Below, in pieces: positions 1 to 27,786 of a DNA stretch of 64,000 nucleotides; position 1 is the first letter of the stretch; each line of letters starts with the position of its first letter. The DNA is taken from the NCBI GenBank assembly GCA_035578155.1, contig JAPWDM010000016.1, forward strand, positions 7,500,005 to 7,564,004. The letters run 5' to 3'. Source of the stretch: Brachynemurus nebulosus (Eukaryota > Arthropoda > Insecta > Neuroptera > Myrmeleontidae). The notes below the pieces were generated by a model. The model searched no databases. It saw only the letters and a list, made by a program, of their open reading frames with translations, and had not been told where the DNA came from. The position numbers were made by a program, and so were the translations under genes.

Positions 1-1179
1 CTACGTTGGAAAACGTTCTGCGACATAAAAACATATTTTCAATAGACGTTAGACTTTTTGTTTTGCAATATTTACAACTATTATGTCTGGCCGAAATGAT
101 ATTTCCTGCGCACGTAAAAACAACGTTTTGCAACATTTTAAAACGTTACGTTATTACGAATATAACCATTGTCAGTCACATGCTCAGTTATATAACCTGA
201 TAAAATTTTCTTCCATTCTGATTGGAGTGCAAAATTAATTATAAATCAAAAAAATTCAAAATAAGTTTCCAAGTCCGATCCTGGCCACTTGGATAAAGTG
301 CAACCGCTAAAAAAAAATTAATTTTTTTTAAGTTTTTAATTTTTTTTGAAATGTCATTACAAAATTCTGTAGTGCAAAAAAGAGGCATACTTCGTCGTCG
401 TCTGTATACTGGTCAACTATGTGGAACGTCTGGTCACTTTAGATATGACGCTACTTAACTGAAGCTTTAAACCATAAAATAAATTTTACTATAGCCAAGC
501 CAATACGTTGAATACGTTGACAGCACATTTTGATAAGACCTTAAAATTACAGTCAATTAGTAAGATCTACAAGATATGTATTTAGAAACATAATTTTACT
601 GAAATTTTCTTTTAAAAGTTTCATTGTAACAATATTTATTACATTATCTACTTATAAATATTGATACTGATATCCTTTTTCGCAATACGTTACACATAAG
701 TAACATGAGCAAAAGTTCAAAATAAAAATAAAAGTAGGTAAGTAGGTATCACAATTCAATAGCAGTGGTGAAATAAAAAATAATATTATTAATATTAAAG
801 TTTTTGAAGTTATACTTGTTTAGGGACGTTACGAAAAAATTACTGTAACATCAAAATTAACAGCATGAAGTTAGTCGCTAAACAAAAGGTAGCGCATAGC
901 ATTTAATATATACCCTATTTCAAATACAATTGATCATGAGTCATCGTTAAAAAATTAAATAATTCTTATATTCGAAACAAATCAATATTCTATTCTTTTC
1001 TAAAAACAAACTGTAAATTTAAAATTTACGTAAATGCAATAATGAAAGAGATAAAGCCAAGAAAACGGAAATTATTTAAATTCATAAGTGATAAAGCATG
1101 GTTAAATTTAAGTGAAATGGACCATACCTTAATTCATTTCAAAGGAGTGACAAATGAATAACGAATACATATATTTAAT
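1..1179. other. AT-rich intergenic sequence
   Basis: No coding region, RNA gene or bounded mobile element is recognised here. Only short chance open frames occur. Confidence 0.5.
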
Positions 1180-3821
1180 ATGGAGATTAGACAAGGAGAC
1201 GAAAGTTATATGAGAGGAATTGACAAAATTGGTCAGGAAAATGGTAAATATTATATTACAACTCCCAGAAAAAAGTTAAGGTAATAAAATTTTGAAAAAA
1301 ATATGATTGGTTAAATAAGATGACAAGGATAAAAAAGCAGCTTGTACAGTGACAGTTCAATTTACTTATCTCTCTCACACAAAAATCTGTCAAACTAAGT
1401 CGGATTTACATAGCTAAAAAAAACTAGCATACGGTATTTTTAATGTGTCTCTCCATGGAGATAAGATACGGAGTCTTCACCTGATGGCAGATTTGTGGTA
1501 ACTGATAACTCTTACTGATTATACCGTGTCACCCTGGAGTTAGATATCTACAAATTCAATTCATTTTAGAAAACTATTAAGAAATTATTCCATTTTATGG
1601 AAAAATAAAGTAGAAATACATATAAGAAAACATTAAAAAGTTACTAGCATTATTTATAAGTAAAAATTAATAACAAACTTAGTTAAAATAAAAAAAAACA
1701 ACAAACACCACTCGAAAATTATAATTGAGAGGACAAATGCATGAAGAAGTTATGTGACATTTTTGTAATTTTACAGTACAACCATTTGAAAGTTTTTATT
1801 TACTTGTACTCCCTATGAAATAGCACATGTTTATTATTGAATTTGTTTGAAACTATTGGAAGTAATGAAACCAAATTTTTCTAGATGATATTTCAGGATA
1901 AAATATTTCTAAATTCTACAAAATCAAAAAAAGTAAACGAACAGTCAAAAATAAATATATTAAATTTTAAGAAAAGTTAAGTTTTGAAAAAATATTAATA
2001 CCATGACGATCATAACCTTTAATGACACAACGTCCAGTGGTACATTATTTTGACGTTTATACACTTCATGTGGATTTATTGACGTCGTGCAACGTGATAT
2101 GTGAGTTAGTAAAGTTTCAGTTGACGTCTTATGACGTCAGCCACCGTCAAGGTGTTACTTTAAATACATAATTTTAATTTTTAATATTTAACATTACATT
2201 TGACATATACATTTTTTTTAACATATACATTTGAAATCATAAAACAATTCGATAAAATTTAAATGGACAAAATCGTTAAAAGTGATGATATTAAAAATTG
2301 AAAATTAAACTTAATAAAATTAAAATTAATAAAAAAAATAATAATAAAACTAAGAAAACAGTGTTACACAAAATTTAGAAAAATGTTACAAAAGAATCAA
2401 AATTAATAACAATTAAAAATGAATCACGGGTGCTCGAAACAAAATAAATATATAAACAAAATGGCTTTAGTCTAATGGAAACAAAGTAGTGACTGTGGCG
2501 CTGTAGTCAAGTTGGGTAACCATTTTAATCTTTTAAGCCGCTTGTTAAACTGGACGGTTGCTGTTTTACATGCCAGCATCAAAAGTGTTGTGCAAATTAA
2601 ATTGGAATCTGTGTTACAAATAGAAGCTATATGGAGTTTACCCCATTTAAAATTTTGATATATGACAAGCACGATAGATAAAATGACGGCACAATCGACA
2701 AATGTCATCAACCTGAGTTAATTCGAGTTAACCGCTTAAGTGGCTAAAATTTTTGATCTTAACTCCCTGACGATTATAGGAATAATTCCGAAAAACTAAT
2801 TGATATAAGTTAAAAAATCAAGAATACACTATTTTGACAACTAGTACACTTTATATGGAACTGTTGACGCCGTTGACGCTGTTTACCGTTATGTATACAT
2901 TAGTTTTTTTTTATAATGTAAAGTGCAATTCTTTTTTTTTTTTTTATTTATAATATCCTGTGTATGTTTTAAGAACTGAATTATGTATTTTAATAATAAA
3001 TGAAATTCTTAATTTAATTACGCATTATAATTTAAAAAGTTAAATGAATGTATATAATTTTTAAAACTATAGTTTTAAATTATAATTTAATATTTCTAAA
3101 TCGTGTTTTGTATTACTATTTTCTATTTTTAATTGAAAAATAATATTTATGAATGTTGCTGCAAGAGGGCAGTTTCGTATTGAAAATAATTTATTTCATT
3201 TTTTGCTATAGTGTAAATCCAACTTGTAAAATTTTATTACGTTTACTTTTTTCTTAGAGTTGTAATACTATATAAGGTTTTATTTTTTACCACTCGCGGC
3301 GTTAAAATGCTCGAATATTGATGTGAATATAGTAACATAAAACGGATAAAACAAAATGTAAATACAGTACTTATTCTCAAATGGAAACACGTCGGGACTG
3401 GGAAAGTGAGTGTTTCCATCTGAGAATCACCAATGTCGGTTGATGATATTTAATAATAAGGAAATACATAGAAATTACATATCCATGAAATAAACTCTTA
3501 TAGTTTAAATTACTTTATATGGCGAATATCCAATGTTACTGACTCCGATTTTACGTAAAGACGTCAGCGAATTCTATAATATACAATATAAATGATGCGA
3601 CGAAAAATAAAAATTGTTAAGTCTATTTTAAAAACGATCGAAAAACCCACTTTTTTCAAAAGCTAACAAAGATAATATAGAAGCTCGCATTTCCATTTGA
3701 GAATGTTCCATTTGAGAATAAGTACTGTACCGCTTTCGTATCCGACGAACACGAGTGCCATCTTTGATATGGACACTTTTTTGAATACATTGAGTTTCGT
3801 CTCCTTGTCTAATCTCCATAA
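1180..3821. repeat. Family A dispersed repeat, possible 2.6-kb TIR element
   Basis: The left end reads TATGGAGATTAGACAAGGAG and the right end (3803-3821) is its reverse complement, so the segment could be one element with inverted ends of about 25 bases. The part next to the right end (3288-3364, continuing at 3728) recurs at 6341-6420 and 10186-10268, and another right end is at 34019-34205. No transposase is seen. The interior also contains TGACGT motifs near 2040-2145 and a block at 1395-1475 that is repeated inverted near 15525-15605. The pairing of these two ends is my inference; they could belong to separate insertions. Confidence 0.45.
3365..3727. mobile_element. Tc1/mariner- or pogo-type MITE, TA target site
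   Basis: The terminal inverted repeats begin CAGTACTTATTCTCAAATGG and are near identical at both ends, directly flanked by TA. The element is 363 bases with no coding capacity and sits inside the right arm of a family A repeat, so it is the younger insertion. Confidence 0.75.
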
Positions 3822-7095: not shown

Positions 7096-8355
7096 TGTTC
7101 AATCATAAGAAGAACGTCTCGAAAATCCGCTCATCAAGAAACAACAGAAAACAATTATCAAGTAAAACATCAAATTCCAATACGGCGCCAACCATCTCCA
7201 CAACAATTTCCTCGTAAAAATACGATTTCAAAAAAAGCGACCCCTAGATCCAAATCCAAAAATCCTTTTCCAATATCTTCTAGTACAATATCTGGCTTCA
7301 AAGTTACTTTACAAGCAACATTAGAAATTTTATCTGAACTTCACAATAATTATGGATATGAATACCTTTTAACATCTCGCTTGACTCAAGATTATCTCGA
7401 GGTAATAGCCAAATTTTTTAAGTATTCATTGTTTATATTTTTATCAGTATTATTATGTATTTTACAGAGACTATTTTCAATTATGAGGTATTCTTGTGGT
7501 TCCAATGATCACCCAACCCCTCAGCAGTTTGGTCAAGTCTTTCGATTATATTGTTGCAATGCAATGATTAAACCTCCAAAAAGCTCGAACGTGACTGGAG
7601 TTGAATTACTGCAAACTTTAATGAAAACGAAAGATTCATTTGAAATGTCACGTCAACCGCGAATGGAGTGGTTGGAAAGTATTGACCGAATGTTAGAAAG
7701 TGCAGTACCAATTGATATTTGGCTAAATAATTCATCAAATGATGCCAATGAAAAAGACCTCGATGATTCATCTGACATATCAGAGATTTCTCTAAATCGA
7801 TCTGAATCATCAACTACTGAATCAACCCCTAAAACTTATAGAACTGACGACGCTCTCGAAGATCATGACTATGATGTTGTATCGACGAGCAGGGAAGTGC
7901 AAGCGTACATGGGTGGATACATTGTAAGAAAACTAAAATTAAAATGCAAATGCTTACTTTGCGTAGGAACTCTCGAATCATCTAAAGATGATTCGATGAG
8001 TCGTAATCGCTATATTGACTTAGTTGAAAAATATGGCGGTCTGTCGCGGCCGAGTGACAGTTTATTTAAACTGACAGTCCAATTAGAGGCAGTTTTCTTA
8101 GACGTTGTTAGAAGAGTGGGTGGGAGTTGTTTGGCTCAGGGACTTATTTATAAAATTTTGGGTAGAATTGGAAATATTTTACCACAATTATCGTTTGTTG
8201 GTTGTCCGATTCACCAACTAGAAATAACTAAAGATATTATAGATTTTTACATAACAATGCGACTGTATTTTCTGGGTCGAACATTTAATAAAAAAAGTCA
8301 ATTAAATCGAGAAAAAATGAAAAGTTTAAAAAAATTTTCAAAGTTAGTTACATAA
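7096..8355 (+). CDS. P-element-like (THAP9-like) transposase, C-terminal half
   Basis: A DNA transposase of the P superfamily, lacking its N-terminus. The frame is open from about 7096, and recognisable homology starts near 7282. The family hallmark Q-D-Y-L-E is followed, after removal of a 66-base intron at 7402-7467, by R-L-F-S-I-M-R and then G-S-N-D-H-P-T-P. Further on are the G-G-Y-I-V-R-K-L region (7912-7935), a Cys pair (K-C-K-C-L-L-C), G-G-L-S-R-P-S, and a basic tail ending at a natural stop. No THAP zinc finger is seen upstream, and family members are usually at least twice this length, so I call it a fragment. The surviving frame has no stop or frameshift, which suggests a fairly recent loss or retention under selection. 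No terminal repeats of its own were identified. Confidence 0.85.
   Translation, partial: CSIIRRTSRKSAHQETTENNYQVKHQIPIRRQPSPQQFPRKNTISKKATPRSKSKNPFPISSSTISGFKVTLQATLEILSELHNNYGYEYLLTSRLTQDYLEVIAKFFKYSLFIFLSVLLCILQRLFSIMRYSCGSNDHPTPQQFGQVFRLYCCNAMIKPPKSSNVTGVELLQTLMKTKDSFEMSRQPRMEWLESIDRMLESAVPIDIWLNNSSNDANEKDLDDSSDISEISLNRSESSTTESTPKTYRTDDALEDHDYDVVSTSREVQAYMGGYIVRKLKLKCKCLLCVGTLESSKDDSMSRNRYIDLVEKYGGLSRPSDSLFKLTVQLEAVFLDVVRRVGGSCLAQGLIYKILGRIGNILPQLSFVGCPIHQLEITKDIIDFYITMRLYFLGRTFNKKSQLNREKMKSLKKFSKLVT
7402..7467 (+). other. 66-base GT-AG intron in P-like transposase
   Basis: The donor GAG|GTAATA and the acceptor TTTTACAG|AGA join Y-L-E to R-L-F, restoring the conserved P-superfamily spacing. 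The intron is 22 codons long without a stop, so retention would add 22 hydrophobic residues instead of truncating the protein. Confidence 0.8.
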
Positions 8356-11131: not shown

Positions 11132-11704
11132 CGGAACACTAGAAGAAACTGATTTTATAAAGAAATTTAAAATCCGACAAAAACAGATATCTGAAGATAT
11201 CTGCAAAAATGGAGGCAAGTACATTGTCAGCTGGGTATTGGTTTGCAACATAGCTTACGTCAACTAAATAAATAAGCAAGAGGAAAAATTAAAAATAAAA
11301 AGACTAACATTATATAAATAATTACACAACTGCATTTAGTATTAGTATTTTAAAATTAAAAAAAAAAAATAGTTGAAATCGATTTTAAATACAAATTTAA
11401 AATTTGTATTTATTATAGTTATTACAATTATATTTATTTGTACTTGGCATAAGAATCGATTTCAACTATTTTTCTTTTAATTTTAAAATACTAATACTAA
11501 ATGCAGTAGTGTAATTATTTATATAATGTTAGTCTTTTTATTTTTAATTTTTCCTTTTGCTTATTTATTTAGTTGACATAAGCTATGTTGCAAACCAATA
11601 CCCAGCTGACAATGTACTTGCCTCCATTTTTGCAGATATCTTCAGATATCTGTTTTTGTCGGATTCTAAATTTCTTTATAAAATCAGTTTCTTCTAGTGT
11701 TCCG
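11132..11704. repeat. Long palindrome, arms about 260 bases
   Basis: 11132-11396 is repeated in reverse complement at 11449-11704 with few differences, around a loop of about 50 bases. Shared landmarks are CAGATATCTGAAGATATCTG and the ATAGTTGAAATCGATT block nearest the loop. The arm starts in family B sequence, so this is probably an inverted duplication of a family B tail. Confidence 0.85.
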
Positions 11705-12540
11705 ATAGTTTTAGAAATACTTTAAGCCCACTAAGTCTCTGGGAAAAATTTTTCATAAATTATTGACACTTTTATTGGTAATAATTTTTTTAAAAAAATT
11801 GTGAAAACAGGTAAAGTAAGGAGCGCTTATTTACTATCAAAAGACAATGCATTGTGTATTAAATACGTAGACAACAAAATAAGAATTGACAATACTATGA
11901 ATAAGAATACTAATTGATGAAATACATTAAATAACTGAGGCACTGTCGAGAAAAGGTAAAATGCTTCATGTGGACAAATTGTATCAGTGCGATTTTGTCC
12001 CAAACACATTCACTGTTTATAAAAATAATATAATTCATAATAAATTTATTTAATTTGAAATTACATCCTGTCCGATTTAAGAACACTGCACTATTTTCTC
12101 AACAGTCTTCAGTAGAATAGCTGAGCGGGTTCGGGAGCACCGTAAAACTAACCAACTTGAACCCTTTTGCCAGTGTTTGAAATCGTGTAACTTTACGGTA
12201 CTAGACATTCCGAACTGATGAGTCATCAAACTGTATCGATATGCAAACCTTAACCTTTGACCCGGCACGTACCTACTACATGTATTTAAAATTTGTTGTT
12301 GACATTTGACCCCAACACTCGCTCATACTGTTGGCGTTGAAACTCCAAAGACATGAGTCATCACCAGCAACCAAATTAATTTATGTTAACCCATTATGCA
12401 TCATCACAATTTACTTATAACAATTTGGTTTTGTGTTAACCCATTACCAGCCAGCACTAACGTAGTTTTTGAATGCAAACCTAACGCATGCGCAGACTGA
12501 ATTTAAGTACACAACGCATGCGCACTCTGAATTTTAGGCC
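11705..12540. other. Intergenic sequence without a gene
   Basis: No gene recognised. GTTAACCCATTA occurs twice (12386 and 12436 areas), and a related ACGCATGCGCA motif occurs twice near 12485-12530. Confidence 0.4.
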
Positions 12541-13430
12541 ACAATTTGATAGATGGGGTATACTACCGCGTCAAAAATGTGGGGATACCCTCCCTCGGGG
12601 TGGCCCCAAACTTTTGACACCGTACTGTACTTAATTTTTGGTACACTGCGGTGTCAAAAGTGTGGACCCCCTAACTGAAAAAGGTGTCCGATCACTTTTT
12701 GAAGCGTACTGTACGTGCAAACCTTGACCCCAACATGCGCTTGCCTTAATTGCGTCATTTTAAAAGAAAGGTACACTACCACTTCAAAAATGTGGGGAAT
12801 ACCCTAACCCAAGAGGTGGCCCCAAACTTTTGACACGGTAGTGTACTTAAATTTTTGGTACACTGCGGTGTCAAAAGTGCGGGCCCCCTAACCAAAAAGG
12901 TGTCCGATCACTTTTTGAAGCGTACTGTACGTGCAAACCTTGACCCCAACACGCGCTTGCCTTAATTGCGTCATTTTAAACGAAAGGTACACTACCACGT
13001 CAAAAATGTGGGGAATTCTCTAACTCGGGGGTGGCCCCAAACTTTTGCCACCGTACTGTACTTAAATTTTTGGTACACTACCGTGTCAAAAGTGCGGGCC
13101 CCCTAACCAAAAAGGTGTCCGATCACTTTTTGAAGCGTACTGTACGTGCAAACCTTGACCCCAACACGCGCTTGCCTTAATTGCGTCATTTTAAACGAAA
13201 GGTACACTACCACGTCAAAAATGTGGGGAATACCCTAACCCAAGGGGTGGCTCCAAACTTTTGACACCGTACTGTACTTAAATTTTTGGTACACTGCCAT
13301 GTCAGAAATGCGGACCCCCCTGACCAAAAAGGTATCCGATCACTTTTTGAAGCGTACTATGCTTATTACGTGCAAACCTTGAACCTCACTTAATTGCGTC
13401 ATCTTAAACGAAAATTGGGAGGCCGCTAAA
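12541..13430. repeat. Tandem array, about four units of 213-216 bases
   Basis: The landmark CAAAAATGTGGGGA recurs at 12572, 12785, 13001 and 13216, giving periods of 213, 216 and 215. Each unit also carries TGGCCCCAAACTTTTG, GTGTCCGATCACTTTTTGAA and GTACTGTACGTGCAAACC. The array is clearly more GC-rich than its surroundings, and its units differ at scattered positions. No open frame spans it. Confidence 0.95.
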
Positions 13431-14409
13431 TTTTGTGGGGGGCACTGTACCAACCGCTGCCGCAAAACTAACTTCAGTCTCCAAACTCCAGGTTTCTGAC
13501 CCCATATTTCCGACTCTAGCTTTCCGACTTCACATTTCCGACTCCAGAGTCCAGATTTCTGACCGCTACTGTACTGCCGGAAATTTGGGTGTCAATTGTA
13601 CTGCATAATATTTTTATATATAATTAACCTTGAAAAACTTATTAGTTTTAGAATTTTATCAGCTTAAAATAAGTTTGTTTTAGCTGAATGTTTATTTTAG
13701 CAGACCTTGAAAGCACATTGTAAAACATCATTTAAGAATTTTAGTATAACACAGAACTATTTACCGCACAATTTATAAATCAAATGAAAATTATATTAAT
13801 ACCTACACATCTGTATATTACGTATAAACCCTGTATATTAATAATAATACGTAGTATTCTATTTCTAATTTATGATTAGACTGAATCTAATTATAAAATA
13901 ATTTATAAATATTGCAAAAAATTTGTTTAATCAGCAAAATCAATGTATATCATTTTAATACTGATACATATTTATATTAGGGTATAATAGTATTGTATTT
14001 ATTTATATTTTAAACAGAATAAAAGTTCAATTTTTAGTTTTAAATTACTATAATTTAAACACGTCGCTTAATATAGAAATGATAACAGCATTGAGTTTTG
14101 CTAAATTTTTATAGATCAGTATCTATATTAGAGAATTCACATGTAAAATCATGTATATAACGGAAGTATATTTAGTATTTTTAATGAATGTTTTCTTATA
14201 CAGGGTGTATCATGAAATATGCTTTTCAATTTGAATAATAAATTTCATAAGATTTTTGTAAATACTTTTATAGGTTAACGAAAGTAACTTCTTGCTGTAA
14301 AAAATAGGGGAATTCAGGGTAATAATTAAATAAAACGCACATAATTTTTTTTTTTTAAATTTTTTTTTTATAGAAATTAAATTGCTTAAATCTATATATT
14401 ACATAAAAT
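13431..14409. other. Intergenic sequence with short degenerate repeats
   Basis: 13480-13600 contains several imperfect copies of TTTCCGACTCCAG. The rest is AT-rich and contains no recognised gene. A poly-T tract at 14347-14372 lies 3' of the minus-strand gene. Confidence 0.4.
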
Positions 14410-14898
14410 CTACTTATTTTCCATATAAAAATTTTTTAAAAGAATACAATTTTCTAATGAACAAATTTTGTCAGAATGAAGCATACAACGTCTTGAATAA
14501 TATTCATCTCGCAGATTGGAAATCTTCGGTATATCAAATATTTCCGCCAAATTCAAAATCCGCGGCTGGTTTTCGGTACCATCAAACAAATTTGAAATCC
14601 ATTTCTTCTTTTCACTGCCCTTGACGTATATGACATCATACTTCTTTAATATAGGTTTCAATATGGTATGAAGTTTTTTGTATGGAATAAATCCATACGA
14701 CCAAGGTATCCCATGCCAATTTCGACAAAACCAACGTGCAGCAGCCCGTTCATATTTCTTCGGCAACTCGTTGAAATCAAACGGTGCGTCGAATATAAGA
14801 TGTAATATTTCATCCGAATTTTTCGCAGCAATACCAACTTCTTTAAAATAAAATTCGTTGTTAGCTCCTTGATAGCCTTGTATGTCAAGAAACGCCAT
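14410..14898 (-). CDS. Uncharacterised DIQG-family protein, 162 aa
   Basis: An intronless gene of unknown function. I recognise the family as uncharacterised proteins of about 160-180 residues. Visible landmarks are D5-I-Q7-G8 in a hydrophobic N-terminal strand, F-K19-E20-V, A-R55-W56 with N60-W-H62-G63 and W66, I90-Y91-V-K93-G94-x-E96-K97, and a C-terminal C138-x2-H141-S-x3-C146-x2-E149-N150. All are conserved at the same spacing in the gene at 23328. There is no signal peptide or membrane segment, so it is probably nuclear or cytosolic. The start is the first Met, 22 bases after a good initiator. The order of elements resembles a DEDDh-type exonuclease fold with a D-x-Q in place of D-x-E; that is inference. 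It stands alone, with no operon-like neighbour. A relic of a mobile element is an alternative. Confidence 0.8.
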   Translation of the reverse strand: MAFLDIQGYQGANNEFYFKEVGIAAKNSDEILHLIFDAPFDFNELPKKYERAAARWFCRNWHGIPWSYGFIPYKKLHTILKPILKKYDVIYVKGSEKKKWISNLFDGTENQPRILNLAEIFDIPKISNLRDEYYSRRCMLHSDKICSLENCILLKNFYMENK

Positions 14899-14917
14899 TT
14901 TTTACCACCGTCGTAGA

Positions 14918-14952
14918 ACTGAATTTACTCACACAATCGACAACTTTATATA
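14918..14952 (-). promoter_or_regulatory. TATA box and initiator of the minus-strand DIQG gene
   Basis: On the minus strand TATATAAAG (14952-14944) lies 32 bases before the A of TCAGT (14922-14918), which is arthropod core promoter spacing. The predicted 5' leader is only 22 bases. Confidence 0.65.
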
Positions 14953-15196
14953 AAATAATTAAAATTGGTTAGGATAGTTAGTTAATTTGTGGGATGTATC
15001 CGAAAATGGATACTAATAGCTATTGCTAGTTGACCATCAAATTACAAACTGTTAATAATAATTAGCACATTGGTGAGTACCATGTTCTTTTCACTTTAAG
15101 ACCTAGTGATTTAAGGAATGCTAAATTTTCGGGTGAAATGTGTTGTCGCTTAAAAGTTTTACGTTTAATGATCCCTAGATTCAACATTCCCTAGAT

Positions 15197-15422
15197 CAGA
15201 GGTCGCCAAAGTTGCCTATATAGACCCGCAGGAGTCTATTTAACAAAAATAGGGGTCGATCTGAACTAGGGGGTACTTAATTATTAGATCCATAATAGAT
15301 ACTCTATTAGGTCCTAATAGATAGCTTTATTTTAATTAACTGAAAATTACTTATATGGGAATCGATAGAGATTTCGAAAAATTATATAGGGGTCGATAAC
15401 CAAAAAAGTTTGGCGACCCCTG
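15197..15422. mobile_element. hAT-type MITE
   Basis: The ends CAGAGGTCGCCAAAGTT and AGTTTGGCGACCCCTG are inverted repeats of hAT type. It is 226 bases and non-coding. No clean 8-base target duplication remains. Confidence 0.65.
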
Positions 15423-16339
15423 CCTTACACCAAACATTCCTTGTTCTTTGTTTGTTTATTATTTTTACAAATTTCCATATTGGACATTGTTTATTAATCT
15501 AATCTACCATTTAGTAATGTTGACTCCGTATCTCCATGGAGAAACAAATCAACAATACTATGGTTTAACTTTTTTAGCTGCGTAAATCCGACCTAAGTTG
15601 ACGTAAAAAAAAATTTATACATACATACACTTTGTCCAGTTTTACATTGTTGGCGGGTCACAAAATCGGCGCAGAAACCTATTTGTGTAAGTAGTATTCG
15701 TAGTATTGTAGTAGCATTTGTGTACTACACTCTGTGCATATGCTGGTACACACTAACACATATACAGATATGCGTGAGGTTGAAAATCTAGCCGCCAAGT
15801 AGAAATGAACAACCAATATCTTTTTCTTTCTCTTTTATTATTTGACAAGAACAACAACAGAAATAACGGATTATGTGAATTTCTAATATTTATAAATAAT
15901 TTATACATAAATGATATATAGAATAGAAATAGACTAATAAACTTAAACTATCCAGGATTACATCAGCCATTCTCCGCTTTTGGAATTAATATACTTTTAA
16001 AATAGGGGAGGAGCTTAATATTTAAATCAATTTATCTCATTAAAATACTAATTTACGGGGGGAATTAATAATTTACAGCCGATTATATAAGGTAACTAAG
16101 CATATTTCTGAATAAATTTTCCGATTTTATCCTATGTTTCGAAGTATTTTCGAAAAAGCATATAACAATGACGTCAGATCTGAAATCTAATGGGGATATA
16201 GAAAGTCGGTCGGTAGATATGATATGACATCGATTTATTTTTATTTTTTTTGTTTTTTCTTCCAAAGTACTTGCCCCGAATTGTCGACCGAAATTCTTGA
16301 TATCTAATTTAAATATATAGTAAGTTCAAAATTAACCCT
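15423..16339. other. Intergenic sequence with a shared repeat block
   Basis: About 15525-15605 (CTCCGTATCTCCATGGAGA) is an inverted relative of 1395-1475, showing a further dispersed repeat. No gene recognised. Confidence 0.45.
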
Positions 16340-16790
16340 CAACACTATCTAACAGGATTAAAATTAAACGGTTGGATTTTGAGAATATTTTATGAAAATT
16401 AAATATGCTATGGAAATATGAATATGGTTAATTTAGGGTTGTTAGGCGAGAATTATGCTCAGAATTTTAGAATATCAAATTTGAATGAACCCGGGGGTCA
16501 GAATTGTCCGTCAAGGTCATCAAATAAGACCCAAATTAATTGTGATATTAAAATTGTCCCCTACGGTCTTGGTGCCCCAAGCAAAGACTAAAATGGAAAT
16601 ACTCCTCAAACTACCTATTGATACGGGTATCTAGGTACATAAAGGTGCGGAAATTAGCCATAGTATTGAAATATGAAGATTGTTACTTTAGAATCGTTTG
16701 ACGAGCGGAGCGAGGCATTATAAATAATTGATGTTCTACAGAATTTCCGAACACCTAATTTACCCCTTTGCACTCGAACCATTTTTTAGT
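16340..16790. repeat. Family B dispersed repeat
   Basis: It carries the GTTTGACGAGCGGAGCGAGG block (16690 area) and the preceding degenerate units also found at 37.5-38.2 kb. Non-coding. Confidence 0.65.
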
Positions 16791-17382
16791 ATATGTACTC
16801 AGCTACTCGACAGTAGTTTTAAAACGCTGCAAACACTATTGTATTAGGAGAACATAATATCCATAATACAATATATCTATTAGTTAATTTTAGTAGTATG
16901 TATCACAATGTATTGTAGCAAAACGTCGCGTCGTTGTGTTGTATCATGTTTTCCTAATATAATAATTTTCAAATAAATGAAGAATGCTGAGAAACGGAGC
17001 GAAGTGGAATCAAAAACGTGTTCACTATCATCGATATAGGGTCTGATATCGCTCCGATAAAATATTATCTCAGTGGTATTGGTACTGGAGCGGTATTGAA
17101 GCGAGAGCGAACCATGACTGATATCGGACCGATATCAGAGCGATAATGTGAATACATTCATTATTTATTATGTAAGAATATTTTATCGAACCGGGAGCGG
17201 AGTGATATCGTACTGAGAGCGGAGCGTTAATGTAAATCGGGCCTTAGGTCCTCTAGCGTGTTGTAAATAATAAAATACGTACCTATTGTTTATGGCGCCG
17301 CTGCGGCGCCTAACGAGTGGAATTAATACAGCGTTCTCTTAAAATAAGCAAACCTAAAATAAGGAAATATTGTAAACAAACA
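16791..17382. other. Repeat-rich sequence with ATATCGGACCGATATC motifs
   Basis: 17030-17245 holds inverted short motifs such as GATATCGGACCGATATCAGA and GAGCGGAGTGATATCG and ends in CGGGCCTTA; it may be an old Harbinger-like MITE. 17294-17310 is a GGCGCCGCTGCGGCGCC palindrome. No gene recognised. Confidence 0.4.
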
Positions 17383-18805
17383 CCCAGTGAACATAGAATG
17401 TAAATGTGATGTAACAAGGAAATAACAAGTTACGCAACTTTTTTGACTTATGGGTGACATAACAATTATATAAAATTAGAGTTTTACGTTATATCCCTAA
17501 TTGGTACCTGTATGTTACGTAACAGTTACGTGCCATTGTGACTGTAATAAAATGTCACATTTGTGACTGCTATGTTACGTTTAGATGATGTATCAAGGTT
17601 GCTTCGATAAAACGTCACAGTGTGACTTTTATGTTATGTCTTCGCAACCTAACAATTTTACTTTAATAAAACCTCACAGAACTGACTCTTATGTTATGTT
17701 TTTGTGACGTATCAACGTTACTTTATTGAAATGTCACAATCATAACTCTTTTGTTATGTCCCGATGACCTAACAATGTTACTTTGAACAAAACGTCACAA
17801 CAGTACTCTTATGTTATGTTTTTGTGACGTATTAACTACAGGTATCTTTAAATTGATAACTCCTCGCGAATTGATACATTTAAAATTAATATGGTAACAA
17901 AACATTTCACAAAAGTGACAAGTGAAATGTTTTATTAATATTGACACGTCACAAAAACATAACAAAAGAGTCATGATTGTGACATTTCATTAAAAAAACG
18001 TTAATACGTCGTTAAAACAGTTAATTTTGTTATTAATTTAAAAATTAAACTCTTATGAAAATTCTTGTAAGGCTTTATTTACTATTTTGTGATATATATT
18101 AATATATAACGATGAGAATAAATAAGTCAGTTTGGTCTAGTCGTTAAGACTGTCGATAATTTAAATGATGCTTCAGCTTGGATAACGGTTCGAATCCTGT
18201 AACAGTCAACAAAAAAAAGAAAAAAAAACAATAATAATTTAGGTGTATGTATATGAACAAAGTTGGTATAGTTTTTCAACATTTAAATGAGATGACTTTT
18301 CAAGTACGGCAATAATCAGCAGTATTGTTCGCAGCATGATACCTACTTATCTATATTAATGCAAAAAGAAACCGTCGCTTGTAAAACAGGTAACAAATTT
18401 AAATACAATTGGAGTGAACATAGGGTGGTATTTGTTGTAAGCAATAAAATAATTTAACATCTTGAAAGTTTATGGTCACTAATAACACCCTCTCGAAAAG
18501 TCATTCCAAATATTGTTGGAAAAGGTATAATATGTGATGTAATGTTAATAAGAAACAAAAAAGGGGTATTTTGAATTTGCTTATTGCAAAAGAAGGCGTA
18601 AGGCGTATTTTTATCTATAAGGTAACATCAAAGTTATATTTTCCTGAAACGTAACAAGAACATAACAATGTTACGTCACATTGTTACGTTTATAAGTGGG
18701 AAATTGTAAGTTACATGTGAGTCATATGTGACTCATATTTTATGTAACAGGTGACTTTCAGTTCTGTCACTTTGACATAAAATTTACAGAAAAATGTTCA
18801 CTGGG
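17383..18805. mobile_element. 1.4-kb CCCAGTGAACAT element, copy 1
   Basis: Begins CCCAGTGAACAT and ends with its reverse complement. Inside are tandem units of roughly 60 bases around TTTGTGACGTATCAACGTTAC, then a core of about 100 bases (17838-17937), then units in the opposite orientation, a tRNA-like module (18126-18209) and a right arm. There is no transposase, so it is non-autonomous. A second copy lies at 29110-30562. The superfamily is unclear because target duplications could not be resolved. Confidence 0.85.
18126..18209 (+). repeat. tRNA-like SINE module inside the CCCAGTG element
   Basis: An A-box-like TGGTCTAGTCGTTAAG and a perfect B box GGTTCGAATCC (18187-18197) are followed by an A-rich tail. 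It resembles a tRNA-derived SINE head and could have an RNA polymerase III promoter. The same module sits at the same place in the second copy, so it was acquired before the element multiplied. Confidence 0.7.
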
Positions 18806-19403
18806 CACACACACATTCAAACATGTTTATATTAAAAAGTAATAAAAATATTGTCAAAAAAATAAAAAATATTAGTATAAATAGTGTGATAAATAATAAA
18901 ATGTTCATGAACTTTTTAATCATTTATTCAGAAAAATTAAAAATTTTGCAATTTGTACATTTACTTATGAGTTTGAAATGAAATGTTTAAAACGTCCAAA
19001 ATCCTACAATTGTCTATAATTCTATATAATTATGCATATATAAACATATCCATGATTTGATTATTTAATAGTATCAGGTAGTATGCATACATGCATATAA
19101 TGCTTGTGGATGTGTTGTTGGAACCGTTGAGACATTATGAAGTGGTGATAAATTAAAATTTAATAGCTTCTTTGACATTCACTTCACAATATGTATCTGT
19201 ACGTATTTACTTTTTGTTCTGTACTTAAACATTAGCAAAGATTATTCTTAAAATGGTCTCATTCGGAACATACAAACGTATTTTCTTATTAATAAATAAT
19301 TATCAATTTATTATATGTATTTATTGTGTACAGTTGTTATTTTAAATAGAAAAAGTTAATTACTTAATGTATGTAGTTAAGTTATGTACTTATTTTATAT
19401 AAC
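18806..19403. other. AT-rich intergenic sequence
   Basis: No gene or bounded repeat recognised. Confidence 0.4.
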
Positions 19404-20458
19404 CAGCGTTGGCAGCTCTTTAACAAGAATATATTGTACCAGGGTCTCTAAAATTATTGTATTTTTGTCTAAATTATTGTACAAAATTATTGTACTTTTG
19501 TCTAAATTATTACACTTTTTAATATGTATGCATGTTCGCTAGAACACCAGAAAATTTGCTTTCAAATTTTCCTTATTATTAGGCCTTTAAATAATTATAT
19601 CTCCCACAACGAAGATCGGAAATAAAAATAACGATTTATAATTTAAGAAATAAGAATTACTAAATAAGAAATATAATATTTAAGTTCTATTTATTTCAGT
19701 TTTGGTATTTTATTTGTATAAAACTAATAAAAAAGCGTTTTCAAAGTTGATAAGATCGATAAATTCCAAGTTGGGCTTTTATGTGCAAAAACTGCATAAT
19801 TTGAATAAAATCTCTATAAAAGTATAACTTTAAATTATATTAGAGTTAAATTAAAATTACATAAAATATACATTTTCGTAAACATTTTTTTATTATGTTT
19901 ATGACATCACATTAAGACATTTACTTCCAATGAGATTTGACCTATACGGGTATACACGTTATATTTTCTATTGCTTATTGGTGTATTCTATACACCAATA
20001 ATACACTGTATAGGAAAAAATACCAGACGATAGGAAAATACCATGCTTCGTGTAAAGACGTTGTATCCATGATATTGCGCGGAAAATTCATATTTTCATG
20101 TAGGTCAATTATAAATACATAGTTAATACTTATGTGAGTCATTTCAAAATATAAGGCCGCTATTACACTGTCATAGATATATGTCAAAGTTTTATTTAAT
20201 CAAAGAAATATTATAGTGTAATAAGTCAACTTTTATAATATAAATTTCTGTAACCATAGTTAAAGATACTTGTTAATATTTGATCATAGATTTGATCAAA
20301 GATCTTTGACATATATCTATGACAATGTAATAGCGGCCTAATACAAAAAAGCTAAAATATTTAAAATTATTGTATTATTGTAAAGCCAAGATTGTACATT
20401 GTACAAATGTCCAAATTATTATACGCGTACAATGATTATTGTACGGCTGCCAACGCTG
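19404..20458. mobile_element. Non-autonomous hAT element with exact 8-base target duplication
   Basis: The ends CAGCGTTGGCAGC and GCTGCCAACGCTG are perfect inverted repeats, flanked by TATATAAC on both sides (19396-19403 and 20459-20466). Both subterminal regions carry several ATTATTGTAC motifs, as expected for hAT transposase binding sites. It has no transposase frame. A Harbinger-type MITE (20155-20338) is nested inside. Confidence 0.9.
20155..20338. mobile_element. PIF/Harbinger-type MITE nested in the hAT element
   Basis: The inverted ends GGCCGCTATTACACTGTCAT and their complement are nearly identical for about 35 bases, flanked by TAA on both sides. It is 184 bases and non-coding. Confidence 0.85.
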
Positions 20459-20648
20459 TATATAACTAAATAAACTGTATTTTTAATATGACAGGGGTTA
20501 TTAAGAAAACATTTAACGTGAGAAAATAAATTAGAAATATTTGGAGAACTGGGCATCGCAGCATGTCTTAGCTTTTGGTTACGGTATATCAGTGACCTAG
20601 TAAATATATGTATATGCATATACATAGATATTTAATTCATCCTGTATG

Positions 20649-20705
20649 TTCCGCTTAAAATAGGGAAAGTGACTTGTTTACTATTCCCTATTTTGAGCGG
20701 AATCT
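20649..20705. repeat. Short hairpin
   Basis: GTTCCGCTTAAAATAGGGAA pairs with TTCCCTATTTTGAGCGGAA across a loop of about 17 bases. Directly downstream is a GC-rich CGCCGTGGCGGCGCC block. Confidence 0.7.
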
Positions 20706-20779
20706 GTATTTATTGTGTCGCCGTGGCGGCGCCCATCAAGTGCAAAGGGTTTCAAGTGCAAAGGCAGCTAAAAAAGTGC

Positions 20780-20970
20780 AAAGCGACTCAAAACCTCCTG
20801 TAGACACTAAAACCATAGGGATATTTTTTCGGGATTAAGTTGTATCCAATTAATTAGCCCTTTCCTGCTCAGCTTAGATCAGGAAAGGGCTAATTAATTG
20901 GATACAACTTAATCCCGAAAAAAAATTCCTATGGTTTTAGTGTCTACAGGAGGCTTTTAGTCGCTTTTTA
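20780..20970. repeat. Near-perfect palindrome of the CCTGTAGACACTAAAACC family
   Basis: Arms of about 90 bases are almost identical reverse complements, with a loop of about 12 bases at 20870-20880. Related sequence is in the MITE at 40632-41035 and, in part, at 21795-21815. Confidence 0.9.
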
Positions 20971-22671
20971 AAAACGATGAGAGTTATTTACTTTCCACCG
21001 TGTATACGCATTTATTCTTAAAGTATTAAATTACATTTTCAATTCGTTACTTACAATTAGAAACATTTTATATATAATTTTTTATTATTTACGTCTTGTA
21101 ACTGATAATTTTTTAAGTGTTTTTACAAAATTAAACTGCAAATAGTTTAAAAACATTTCACTATCCTGTAAAATTATTTCTTGAGTACGTGTTTAGAGTT
21201 GTATTTAAAGATATTAACAATATTGCACCTTTTTTTCATATTATTTCCTGCTTACATCTAGGAAAGCCAACTTGTATCAATTTGAGAAAGGGGTACTTTT
21301 GAGTTTATCTATTAGTTCGAAAGAATTTTTAACACTATGTGTAGAGCTGAACTGAGTTTCTGTTTTAAATAAAATGTCTAAATGTTTTGCTAATTTATGT
21401 GACGGACAACCGACATGGGAAACTGCAGGCCTTATTGGATTATCAGGTTTGTGTGTGTCTTTACGAGTCCGTACATTCTAGGAGCTTTTAGATTCATTTC
21501 CACTAAATAATGTCATTCTCTTTCAGAAAACATACTTTTATTATCATTAATTAGTTTTTTTAATTTCTTCATTACATTTATTAGCTGGATCGGTAAAAAG
21601 ACTTTTTTTCGTTTTTAGTTTACATTAACTTTCAAAATTTTTGTGTTTTAGTGGAAATTTAGTTATTTCCTTTTTAGAATTGAAAAAAAATTTAAATATG
21701 GCTCTGTATTGTGTGAGTAGTCTATATACGCAGTTAATCCCCAAGCTTACACGAAGAAAAATCCATCAAATTTAAGGTAACAAAGAGGGTGTTTACAACT
21801 TAATTCCGAAAAAAAAATTAAAATTTCATAGTCCAAATTAAAGTTTTCATCATCATTTTGGCAAACTTGTTAATATGTACATAGACATGACTCTTCAAGC
21901 AAATTTTTAATAATTAAACACATTTTATTTTATAAATAAAATTATAATAATATAATTAGTAGGTACATATTGAAGTATGTAAAAAATGCTGATTCGATGT
22001 TTGATAAAAAAGAATTTCTTGTTTAAGATATTACAGTCGTTTACAAAAACTAGAGGTAATTTAATACCTATAGGTATATTTAACTAATTTTTAATAATTA
22101 AACTAACAAGTAATAAATTTAACAAAAACAGATATATTGTTTCAGTAAATATAAAATATGGGAAAGAAATTTTTCTTAAAATATATGGAACATTGTGCTA
22201 TTAATTTAAGACTAAAAAAAATATCTATGAAGAGAAATTAATGTTTCAAAACTGTTTTAAATTCTTGATATTATTATTAAATATTAAGCTTTAAAAATAT
22301 TAAGATATATGATTTTTTTTAAAATATATTTATATTGTGAAATATGATTTTAACGCTGTAGAAATCCTTACTTTTAACAGAGTACTGTATAGTTTAAGTT
22401 TCAAATTTATCTTTTAATATGTACCTAAATGAAAAGAATGCTATAGAGTGGTTTAAACTATAGCGTGCACTTTAATTTCAAATTAAATTTTTATAACATT
22501 GCTAACAAAAATCTGTATATGAATAAGAAACTAATTCTTTTCCAACTAATAATCGTTTATTTAAATTACACAAGGTTAATAATAGCAAATATACATACAC
22601 ACAATTATGTGAATTTTATATCGAATTATAATATTCGAGTAATATTTGTACTATGAATAAAGCAAGTGATA
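20971..22671. other. AT-rich intergenic sequence
   Basis: No gene recognised. 20975-21005 (ATGAGAGTTATTTACTTTCC) resembles the terminus of the MITE at 40632. Confidence 0.4.
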
Positions 22672-22750
22672 ACATAATTTTTATTTTTACATATTAGACG
22701 GAAATTTTTCGTTCGTAGTATTAGTAGCAATAATCTTGTAATGACGTCAG
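22672..22750 (+). repeat. Direct repeat upstream of the plus-strand DIQG gene
   Basis: About 75 bases (CATATTAGACGGAAAT and following, ending TAATGACGTCAG) recur in the same orientation at 23952-24025, downstream of the gene. The pair brackets the gene about 1.28 kb apart. Confidence 0.75.
22742..22749. promoter_or_regulatory. CRE-type palindrome TGACGTCA
   Basis: A perfect consensus CREB/ATF site. Subtracting the hAT MITE and its target duplication (456 bases) would place it about 44 bases before the TATA box of the gene at 23328. Function is inferred from position only. Confidence 0.45.
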
Positions 22751-22768
22751 TAAAACATGCATACACAC

Positions 22769-23216
22769 TAGTGATGGAGAACTATCGATAGTCCCGACTA
22801 TCGATAGTTCTGACTATCGATAGTCCCGACTATCGATAGTTACGATAGTCGTGAAACAATCGATAGTTTTTGATACCCAAGTTGGGCGGCATTTAGATAC
22901 TTAGATTAGTTTTTTTTTTTTTTTGCTCCCGTACCCGGCGAGCAAAAAAAAAAAAAAAGAAAAAAAAAAGGTCGCCGGTTTTACGCTGGGGCGGAATTAT
23001 TCTTTTTTGCCCGGAAATTCCCTTAAAATGGTTGTTTTTATATCTCTGGCTATAATTTCTACGAAATTTTTATTATCTTTAGTATTTATAAGTAAACGAA
23101 ATGACTGAAAAAAAGTATCGAAAACTATCGAGAGTAAAAAAAAAAATATCGATAGTTTTCGATAGTCAAAACTATCGATAGTTATCGATAGTGCTATCGA
23201 TAGTTCTCCACCACTG
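22769..23216. mobile_element. hAT-type MITE with CTATCGATAG-repeat arms
   Basis: The ends TAGTGATGGAGAAC and GTTCTCCACCACTG are flanked by ATACACAC on both sides (22761-22768, 23217-23224), an exact 8-base hAT duplication. Both arms are arrays of ACTATCGATAGT. The middle has an A-rich stretch and sequence shared, inverted, with the element at 44592. It separates the DIQG gene's TATA box from upstream sequence. Confidence 0.92.
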
Positions 23217-23248
23217 ATACACACAACTTATTCAAGCAAGCTCACACC

Positions 23249-23286
23249 TATAAAAATCAGTTTTATTTTAAAGAAAATATTAGTTA
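23249..23286 (+). promoter_or_regulatory. TATA box and initiator-like site of the plus-strand DIQG gene
   Basis: TATAAAAA starts at 23249. TTAGT lies at 23279-23284, with its A about 33 bases downstream. The predicted leader to the ATG at 23328 is about 46 bases. Confidence 0.55.
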
Positions 23287-23327
23287 CTGAATTCTAAGCC
23301 GAACAGTTTGACTCTAGACTTCACATA

Positions 23328-23840
23328 ATGAAGACCGACGCTGCGATTGTTGATTTCCAAGGACTTGTAAACACAACAAAGGGGGAATTCTACATAAAGG
23401 AATTGGCACTGTTGAAATTCGATTCTTCCAAAGAAAATTATGGTGAAGATTATATACTAAAATACTATATTTTCAAATCACCAATACCGTTTTGCGGATT
23501 AAGTGAAAAAGATCAGCGCACAGCTCGTTGGTTGCGGCAAAATCATCATGGGTTTTCCTGGATGGATGGGCATATTGAATACGAGGAACTACAATGCATT
23601 TTAATAAACAATCTACATGGAACTCGAATCATCTATACGAAAGGAGTAGAAAAAGTGCGGTATTTGAAACGACTACTACTATCAGCGCTCATTATGAACT
23701 TTGAAGAAATAACAATTTGTCCCAAGTTGGGAATCATAACATCAACATACACTAGTCCTCGATGCGGCCATCATTCCGGAGCAACTTGCGCCATGGAAAA
23801 TGTTATATCCATATACAAATATTATTGTAATAACATTTAA
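23328..23840 (+). CDS. Uncharacterised DIQG-family protein, 170 aa
   Basis: An intronless paralogue of the gene at 14410-14898. Matching landmarks are V-D9-F-Q11-G12, E-F-Y-I-K24-E25-L, A-R67-W68 with N72-H-H74-G75 and W78, I-Y103-x-K105-G106-x-E108-K109, and C146-x2-H149-S-x3-C154-x2-E157-N158. The last motif has exactly the same spacing as in the other copy, although the two proteins are otherwise divergent. It has eight extra residues in the first third. No signal peptide or membrane span. The start is the only Met before the conserved strand and follows a TATA/initiator pair; AATAAA lies 29 bases after the stop. A hAT MITE sits in its upstream region and direct repeats bracket it. Function is unknown; a degenerate nuclease-like fold is possible. 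Confidence 0.82.
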   Translation: MKTDAAIVDFQGLVNTTKGEFYIKELALLKFDSSKENYGEDYILKYYIFKSPIPFCGLSEKDQRTARWLRQNHHGFSWMDGHIEYEELQCILINNLHGTRIIYTKGVEKVRYLKRLLLSALIMNFEEITICPKLGIITSTYTSPRCGHHSGATCAMENVISIYKYYCNNI

Positions 23841-23868
23841 ACATTTTTATTGTAAAATATTTCTTTTA

Positions 23869-23874
23869 AATAAA
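23869..23874 (+). terminator. Poly(A) signal AATAAA
   Basis: A canonical AATAAA shortly after the stop codon of the 170-residue gene. Confidence 0.6.
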
Positions 23875-23951
23875 TTTATTAAAATAAAAAATGTGTTTTC
23901 ATTTAGAGGAAAACCTGTATAAACCTGTTTCAGATAAAAATATATAATCAT

Positions 23952-24025
23952 ATGATAAAATTCATTTTTGCATATTAGACAGAAATCTCCGTTATTAATA
24001 TAAGTATACCTTCTAATGACGTCAG
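23952..24025 (+). repeat. Direct repeat downstream of the plus-strand DIQG gene
   Basis: Partner of 22672-22750: CATATTAGACAGAAAT and following, ending TAATGACGTCAG, with a second perfect TGACGTCA at 24017-24024. Confidence 0.75.
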
Positions 24026-26390
24026 CTGACAATTTATACAAGTTTAAACCTGTTTTCAGATAAAAATATGATAAAATTGTGAATCAAGGTACAGAGTTCC
24101 CGGTGGTTCAGACTAACAACGCCATCTTTTAACTATCAAAAAGAAATTTCGGTGCAATCTGTTGACAATTTATCAAACTTGCACACAGGGATCGCTATTA
24201 TCCAGACTACGAGCGCCATCTAGTAGTGAATTTACAGGGCTCAAAGGTGGCTGCGCCATCTATTAACAATTTTTCAAACTTACGTAGACCAAATTTCCTT
24301 AGGTTCTGTTAGGTTGGATCAAGTTCCATTGGGCTCAGTGGGGTTAGAAAAAATTTCACTAGATGTCGTTAGGTTTGAGACCAAATTTTGCTCCACCCAC
24401 CGCCAGAGGCTTCTAGAACCTCCCCGCTAGAGTTACTTCCTCCCGGGGTCGGTCAGAAAAGTCGGATGGTGGGCTCAGAATGCCCCAAAAGTAACTACTG
24501 ATATGTTTTTTTTTTCATTAAGATATTGTTATGGTTGCAAGCCATTATAACTTACGTTATTTACTGTATTATAATTTCTTACAATGCAATCTTCTATTGT
24601 GTTAAAACTTGTATATAAAGTAAAGATGAAGGCATTAAAAATGTTTATGGAAAGTCATCCACAAATTAAAAACAAATTCTCATAAATTCGCTAAAAGTTG
24701 CCAAAGCAAAGTTCAATACGTTAATTATATTTTAAATTTTACATGTAAAATTGAACAGTTAGTTTACCTAAAAATCATAAATTTATTTAGAAATCTAAGT
24801 TTATTCAGAAATCTTAATTTAATAAAAGATCAAAACAAAAAATTGAAATTATCCACTTAACATCTAAGGGTTTTTTTATTTTCATAAAATTGCGTATAAA
24901 AATTTTGATTATATGAAGTTTTCGATAATTAAACTTTAATATGTATAAAAACGAGATAAACCAATGCTTATTTACGCTTAAATGATGAATATAAACGGAA
25001 AAACCGTATTCCTATCCGAATTCGGACGACCGAATATATTAAATGATAGACTTACTTCTTTATTTCTTGAAAAACTAACTGAAAATCGAAACGAAGTCAG
25101 AGGTATCTAGATTCTAGAGACAATTAGAGATAAATCAATGTTCAATTATATGCTACCAGTAGAAGCTCGTTTTTTTGAACATCCTTTAAAAACGTCACAT
25201 TAAAATAGTAATCGGTTTCTAGAATTAATTTTTATACAATTCTTAACGTGATATTTCCCAAAAAGTTTTTGCCTATGTTTCAATTTACTTCTTGCTTAAA
25301 TTTTGTTAACGTAGTTGCTCTGAGATAGTCAGGTACAAAAGTATATCTCAAAATAAAAATTTTCTTTATCAAAAATTTAATAATGTACTAATATTCTTCA
25401 GTGATTATATTTGTATACCACTTGTTTGTTTTTTAATTTCCGCGCGCTTATGTTGTAGCAATATAAAAACATTATTGAAAAAGCGTTGTAAAAACGTTGT
25501 AAAATAATGTTTATAAATTATATTTATAAACGGCGTGGTGAATAATTTTTATTTCTTATCAAATATGGTTTGTAACTTTGTATTTTATAATATATTAAAT
25601 TTTGATCAAATTCCTGTGACACGTTTTCATTTTATTCAAAAAAAAAAAATAAAAAAAAAATAGGCTCGTATTATTGGTATTGAATTAAATAAATATCTAG
25701 AGAAGTTTCGTTAAAATCCTTTAAAAAAGTCGTTTTATCGACCAGCTACCTTAAATCAAACAATAAAATTTTTTTAAGCTAAAGTCACTTTATGTATTAC
25801 AGTTTTTCTATTCCTGTATGTAACAGACGGAAAAAATAATCTTGTTTTGTTCTATATTCACGCTTATAGTACAAACCAATAATTATAAACTGGTACAAGT
25901 ACAAAACAATAGTAAAAGTACAAAACAATAGTAAGGGAATATGGATCTATAGTTTAATTTTTGCAATCATGAGGATATCAATTATCATTTTACTCCGAAA
26001 TTCGAGGTCAGATTTCTATGAAATTGTATTGTATGACAACTAACTTATTTACAAGTAAAAAATTATTATCTATTTGATAATAAAATGTAAAATAAATAAG
26101 ATATGAATTTTTAAACTTTCAAATCGCAATATCTCAAAAGTAGAAAAAGTGGATATAGAACAGACCAATACTAGAGCAGCGATATATCATAGACATCTTA
26201 TATGTCTATGGTATATATTCATTAGGTAGTACAAGTGCAATCATCTGTGACAGATTTTTTGGAATATGGTAAAATTGTAAGTAATGTTCAATTTTACCGG
26301 CATAAGCTTGTAATTTCATTATTGACTTTATTTGGCGATAAAATACTCAATATTAAGACCAGCAAAAAAATAGAATTTTAAGCAATCTTA
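24026..26390. other. Intergenic sequence with short local repeats
   Basis: 24115-24285 has three degenerate blocks containing GCGCCATCT followed by AACAATTTNTCAAACTT. 24295-24400 repeats GTTAGGTT-like motifs. 26191-26217 is a small hairpin (ATCATAGACAT/ATGTCTATGGTAT). No gene recognised. Confidence 0.45.

Positions 26391-26861: not shown

Positions 26862-27786
<925 letters not shown>

Follow-up and report, generated by a model that had tools for sequence, protein, structure and literature searches.

A 64,000-nucleotide stretch of the genome of Brachynemurus nebulosus (contig JAPWDM010000016.1, here C45, positions 7500005–7564004; hereafter the window) contains two intact open reading frames (ORFs) of 162 and 170 aa on opposite strands, whose products share the motif D-[IF]-Q-G and are called DIQG proteins here (Table 1). 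What are these genes, and to what do they belong? Both were found to be members of high-copy element families with Polinton-type ends, in one of which the DIQG gene directly follows a capsid gene. Taken as a whole, the data lead us to favor, with some reservation, the reading that DIQG is an accessory gene of two Polinton/adintovirus-like families, encoding a pseudo-enzyme with an RNase H fold that would likely bind nucleic acid.

The two window proteins aligned with 35% identity over 169 columns (BLASTP E = 3e-26 in a single comparison), placing their relatedness far above chance level, and 57 columns, counted by hand from the alignment, were invariant. The two related frames reported in a preliminary description of the locus were both recovered, and its shared motifs all fell on invariant columns, except for an I/F position already given there as variable. 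No third DIQG copy was found in the window by tblastn at E < 0.9. The Pfam scan of both proteins gave no significant match, a single match of the second protein, with E = 0.061, falling short of its cut-off. In a protein database of 5.8 billion entries, the first protein had no match at E ≤ 0.01 and the second none at E ≤ 1. In scans of viral contigs, the two-protein alignment drew 148 pattern matches and the second protein 5, and none was confirmed; PDB sequence searches gave spurious matches only. We suspect that the protein and viral collections are poor in insect viruses, so that the missing matches say little.

A six-frame search of the 960-Mb genome was scored for the best 150 of 4042 first-look candidates with the first protein and the best 150 of 4275 with the second. 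All 150 scored matches per protein were full or near-full length, and by hand count 131 and 142 of them, respectively, had no internal stop. As the scored rows are the top-scoring ones and counts are lower bounds, each window gene has at least 149 further copies, and copies of the element families number in the hundreds at least. Of the scored neighbors at most 20 kb apart, 13 of 14 pairs with the first protein and 34 of 35 with the second had their genes facing outward; this pairing was judged on scored rows only, most candidates being unscored and the other rows having no scored neighbor within 20 kb.

Twelve first-family pairs, picked for being pairs, were fetched. Their inverted arms had longest aligned lengths of 0.97–4.5 kb at 92.9–99.97% identity, with inner gaps of 94–3170 nt; the arms of L036, L037 and L041 reached the end of the fetched stretch. 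Both DIQG genes were open in 11 of the 12 pairs (one only in L040), and 10 had an inner C2H2 zinc-finger ORF of at least 100 aa (none in L033 and L040; 111 aa in L042). Polinton/Maverick elements are marked by 6-bp target site duplications and by terminal inverted repeats with 5'-AG termini. AGTAG...CTACT termini and 6-bp duplications were present in all eight elements, from both families, for which both ends were read. Among eight first-family rows compared at their ends, six had exact 6-bp duplications, and the aligned arms of L034 and L042 stopped inside the element; ends were not read for L035, L036, L037 and L041, nor for second-family pairs other than the one on contig C99. The inner genes of L031, L034, L048 and L052, from both families, encode proteins of 288–390 aa with a single N-terminal C2H2 finger and an acidic tail. 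L034 (4519–4881), L035, L036 and L037 also had in common a conserved ORF of 120 aa that matched nothing in Pfam or the PDB; its candidacy as a single-strand-binding protein found no support.

One larger element was also read. The ~17-kb element at C48:5916653–5933804 had identical 30-nt ends, the target duplication TACCTA and a terminal repeat of ~0.8 kb. It carried pieces of a family B polymerase in three separate frames, one of which matched PF03175 at E = 1.1e-5 (24.9 bits, where the cut-off is 25.8). Also present were split remnants of a C2H2 gene and a single DIQG gene, which is interrupted by an internal stop and lies on the inner side of the right terminal repeat. No DIQG frame of at least 100 aa was found at the matching place on the left side. 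DIQG is therefore a single-copy gene beside one end of this element, an end that the paired forms seem to carry in inverted duplicate. Judging from this one element, such forms would be expected if a linear, protein-primed genome were copied by fold-back (snap-back). The pair C48:5912816/5931520 was rejected as one element, since it resolved into several nested insertions. In addition, an N-terminal polymerase piece at L043:5350–7374 matched PF17772 (zinc-finger, E = 2e-5) and PF02945 (endonuclease VII-like, E = 8.9e-4), both below cut-off. A double-jelly-roll capsid gene was not noticed in the first-family stretches that were read.

Such a gene was present in the second family. The C99 pair was a near-perfect palindrome with ends AGTAGTAGG, target duplication TCGGCT, an arm aligned over 3.9 kb to the end of the first stretch at 99.5% identity, and a gap of 216 nt. 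Each arm reads outward, starting with a frame of 128 aa, followed by a putative protease, a frame of 242 aa, the capsid frame of 449 aa and finally DIQG, the ATG of which lies 53 nt past the capsid stop; these genes constitute the late-gene cluster of a Polinton. The capsid frame beside DIQG in L046 was of the double-jelly-roll type (PF21738, E = 9.8e-121), and the protease frame matched PF02902 at E = 0.0046, below the cut-off, and S273R of African swine fever virus at E = 6.3e-5 over 56 residues only. The penton protein is described upstream of the major capsid protein (MCP) in Polintons (PMC4028283), and the 242-aa frame, which had no Pfam match, occupies that position. Capsid genes were read in one second-family element, and L049 and L050 retain the capsid 3' end only. 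Read for an integrase or a family B polymerase, the middle stretches of a 16-kb and an 18-kb second-family pair (8.6 and 9.4 kb) instead yielded C2H2 genes, inverted repeats and a Gypsy-like insertion. Gypsy-like gag-pol frames were recognized by eye at L052:3–3553 (minus strand), within a second-family element.

With Polinton/Maverick elements and adintoviruses the two families share 6-bp duplications, inverted terminal repeats, a family B polymerase and a double-jelly-roll MCP; the candidate Ulp1/adenain-like protease would be a further common feature. Unlike Polinton/Mavericks, the paired copies here have inverted arms of about 1–4.5 kb and carry DIQG twice. Apart from the Gypsy-like insertion in L052, no integrase or ATPase was noticed among the ORFs of L031–L052 (17 ORFs were Pfam-scanned, 15 of them from these loci), and no genome-wide search was made. 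Copy number, element ends, 6-bp duplications and the capsid gene strongly supported the earlier suggestion of a multicopy family of mobile or viral ancestry, and a gene of viral origin would be expected to have no introns, as seen here. We assign both families to the Polinton/Maverick type, as endogenous adintovirus-like double-stranded DNA viruses, with DIQG as the outermost gene, beside the terminal inverted repeat and read outward from its own promoter. The long inverted arms, in 12 first-family pairs and one whole second-family pair, appear as if the DIQG-bearing end had been duplicated in inverted order.

For the window copies, the most fitting reading is that each stems from a separate insertion with one end, the two belonging to different families (Table 1); no second arm or partner end for either remnant was found in the window. 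The second remnant has a capsid-less upstream sequence common to L049 and L051. Its inner boundary was set where homology to L049 runs out, the final 70 nt being weak, and homology to L051 reaches 22032.

Table 1. Features of the two DIQG loci in the window (positions relative to the first nucleotide of the window).
Feature	Position	Strand	Remarks
First-family Polinton-type end arm	12111..15173	-	AGTAG at 12111 is the outer end (flank GTCTTC); on the inner side, other copies are homologous up to 15173
216-bp x 3.7 tandem repeat	12557..13358	.	Common to arms of other copies
DIQG gene, first family	14410..14898	-	162 aa, intact; predicted RNase H-like pseudo-exonuclease
TCAGTT initiator, first gene	14917..14922	-	30 nt from TATA box; TCAGT in 30/30 copies
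TATATAAA box, first gene	14945..14952	-	Pattern in 29/30 copies, same spacing in 28
Second-family right-end remnant	21926..24499	+	CTACT at 24499, flank GATATG; without capsid gene
TATAAAA upstream of second gene	23249..23255	+	
TTAGTT initiator-like site, second gene	23281..23286	+	
DIQG gene, second family	23328..23840	+	170 aa, intact

A separate TATA box and initiator for each gene, as first described, were seen at both window genes. Across 30 first-gene loci, fetched by protein similarity, the distance of 30 nt between TATATAAA and TCAGTT was kept in all except L019 (29 nt) and L015 (a variant box outside the pattern). In L046, where the capsid gene is kept, and in L049 and L050, where its 3' end is kept, the TATAAAA box shares bases with the stop codon of the capsid gene, and TCAGTT or a variant with TCAG comes after it. 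Palindromes ACTATCGATAGT/TATCGATA are repeated at window positions 22781–23205, directly upstream of the second gene.

The function of DIQG was approached through its predicted fold. The structure model, usable for the first protein only and moderate in quality (pLDDT 61.9, pTM 0.62), was RNase H-like. Its best PDB match by Foldseek was Maelstrom, at a marginal E of 5.7e-3; the exonuclease domain of the arenavirus Lassa NP also matched (probability 0.82, E = 0.032). Bombyx Maelstrom is described as a dead RNase H-fold RNA binder, with zinc on E137, C290, H293 and C302 and a dead pocket of D122, N124 and R306 in its MAEL domain (PMC4408791). Comparable residues were found in the first protein (D5-x-Q7, E20, C138-x2-H141, C146, N150) and the second (D9-x-Q11, E25, C146-x2-H149, C154, N158): E20 follows D5 by 15 residues, as in MAEL (122 to 137), and N150 follows C146 by four, as from 302 to 306. 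The counterparts of the zinc-binding ECHC set, E20, C138, H141 and C146, were placed by motif order and spacing and are invariant between both proteins; E20 is not universal among copies, being G in L018. The MAEL motif is elsewhere described as EHHCHC (PMC2628886), an order readable in the first protein as E20, H33, H62, C138, H141, C146, and the second protein lacks the first His. On this model, DIQG would fold as a zinc-stabilized pseudo-exonuclease with a Maelstrom-like zinc site.

DIQG and the MAEL domain have several features in common: the RNase H-like fold predicted for DIQG, a D-x-(N/Q) on the first strand, an E at +15/16 on the second, C-x2-H...C and a non-acidic residue at C+4. DIQG differs in having no HMG box and a shorter H-to-C loop and in being encoded by a mobile element. 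Two sequence results weigh against the comparison. Host Maelstrom exons were located by PF13017 at C1:161096521 and 161100382 and read with little flank, and local alignments of DIQG to them stayed within the shuffle range in all six comparisons, with 679 to 3367 of 5000 shuffles reaching the score, giving no significant sequence similarity. Furthermore, PF13017 was absent from the Pfam scan at E up to 10, and the PDB profile search showed no Maelstrom similarity. A shared superfamily fold with similar residue placement is predicted; shared descent with Maelstrom lies beyond this evidence. Lassa NP likewise has an RNase H-like fold and, according to PMC4408791, both ECHC and DEDD motifs, but it is an active exonuclease that retains DEDD, which DIQG lacks.

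Against predicted viral structures, the Foldseek matches included proteins of an adintovirus, which would encode a fold-level relative of DIQG, and of ichnoviruses. The ichnovirus proteins GfV-D6-ORF1, GfV-B38-ORF1, AsIV-cont00151-ORF1 and AsIV-cont00163-ORF1 were among the seven matches at E ≤ 0.001, with 28–31% identity over 92–126 columns; they differ in length (106–166 aa) and come from polydnaviruses of wasps. A literature search on four such viral gene names turned up PMC8363768 alone, according to which adintoviruses 1 and 2 encode proteins that may be very remotely homologous to AsIV-cont00038 of an ichnovirus and MdSGHV056 of a hytrosavirus, with no function given. Among the matches listed for Polinton/adintovirus and Maelstrom, none linked both in its title or abstract start; PMC11125864 names both, in separate contexts, and PMC12910113 likewise contains the two terms.

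These relatives bear on the main alternative, that DIQG is a structural or late virion protein or a DNA-handling protein that binds genome ends or single-stranded replication intermediates, unrelated to small RNAs. Its position directly after the capsid gene in the second-family late cluster, beside the terminal repeat, is what such a role would produce, and the model also had weak fold matches to fowlpox Holliday-junction resolvase and polymerase-type exonuclease domains. However, DIQG has its own TATA and initiator, and fold-level relatives occur in ichnoviruses, which are described as not replicating in the caterpillars they enter (PMC7843510); this suggests a use of DIQG outside genome replication. 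We regard a virion or DNA role as a real contender to which we give the lesser weight.

Conservation among copies was assessed for both genes. For the first gene, 30 loci gave 25 distinct coding sequences and 300 pairs, with a pooled ratio of nonsynonymous to synonymous differences (pN/pS) of 0.156 and a median dN/dS of 0.146 over the 282 pairs with dS > 0.05; since loci were ranked by protein score, dN is lowered and pN/pS is biased low. For the second gene, pN/pS was 0.175–0.228 between the window copy and L046 or L049 and 0.073–0.078 between L046 and L049, L051 being missed by the motif used. Purifying selection between copies is evident, subject to the ranking bias. The label "fast-evolving" in the preliminary description found no support within the families (0.156 in the first, 0.07–0.23 in the second, with the same bias for the first); between them, 65% of aligned positions are unlike. 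Its other proposal, that intact frames reflect selection or recent arrival, fared unevenly: the copy number fits recent spread, but the first window copy looks relaxed, with four nonsynonymous and no synonymous private codons against 20 other equal-length copies (nine loci with a 483-nt match were excluded).

That relaxed copy would also suit the view that DIQG merely hitchhikes in the inverted-arm derivatives, useless to them, as the gene nearest the duplicated end. Whichever end is duplicated brings its outermost genes. In the first family, moreover, mean identity was 95–96% in coding windows and 92–95% in the directly adjacent non-coding ones, and fell to about 72–83% farther out in the arm, so that sequence adjoining the gene is nearly as conserved as the gene. 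Low pN/pS, down to 0.073 between L046 and L049, and the constant distance between promoter elements in 28 of 30 loci argue against hitchhiking, within the limits that the ranking biases the ratio and that selection could act on source copies only. We consider it rather unlikely.

An active exonuclease with a non-canonical residue set was also considered. The model is RNase H-like, and the invariant H62, W66, K93, E96 and K97 could form another site. The third catalytic position, which we take to be K97 from a hand alignment to DnaQ motifs, completes a predicted DEDD reading of D5-Q7-K97-N150. By this placement DIQG has Q, K and N in place of the catalytic E, D and D of DnaQ-type proofreading exonucleases, together with an extra C-H-C motif, and would be a pseudo-exonuclease. 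Bombyx Maelstrom, described as having lost all but the first catalytic residue, is nuclease-inactive (PMC4408791), and catalytic activity of DIQG seems to us very unlikely. Finally, adoption of one or both window genes as cellular genes, for which the intact frames and promoter-like sites might speak, is hardly credible: cellular paralogues were rejected because of the copy number of both families, the window copies are one-ended element remnants, and the private changes of the first are all nonsynonymous.

Elsewhere in the window, inverted arms of 236 nt, 98% complementary and 101 nt apart, form a foldback/MITE-like repeat at 11132–11704. A 290-aa ORF at 7483–8355 (plus strand) is probably a transposase remnant (its match to a TNP-like RNase H C-terminal domain is marginal, with E = 0.04), and an ORF at 27217–27702 (minus strand) with a DUF4817 helix-turn-helix (PF16087, E = 1.3e-13) is probably part of a DNA transposon. 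A 134-aa ORF at 49403–49807 (minus strand) ends in a hydrophobic tail, which may resemble the C-terminus of the acyl-CoA-binding protein ACBD5.

Returning to DIQG as a pseudo-enzyme of Polinton/adintovirus-like elements, the protein would most likely bind nucleic acid without cutting it, and by analogy with Maelstrom the ligand may be single-stranded RNA. The preliminary description had raised a defense role, and for host defense this analysis found no support; the gene might serve the element in counter-defense. Our leading functional guess is that DIQG would interfere with the small-RNA silencing of the host and so protect the element, given that Bombyx Maelstrom, too, is described as a dead RNase H-fold RNA binder (PMC4408791). 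A broader and more speculative version, which we think improbable as it stands, is that animal Polintons and adintoviruses, and ichnoviruses, carry a Maelstrom-like, zinc-bound and catalytically dead RNase H-fold protein, which would block small-RNA silencing either in competition with host Maelstrom or through binding to transcripts of the element, and that this lets palindromic one-end derivatives reach high copy number.

A protein family without a Pfam match thereby gains a home, as an accessory gene of Polinton/adintovirus-like elements, and a testable fold and mechanism. The inverted-arm derivatives suggest that fold-back copying of a linear genome may be a simple route to high-copy non-autonomous forms. 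If the proposal is true, a mobile element or virus would encode a protein folded like a factor that helps to silence such elements, and this would open a direct way to study how Polintons evade the piRNA pathway.

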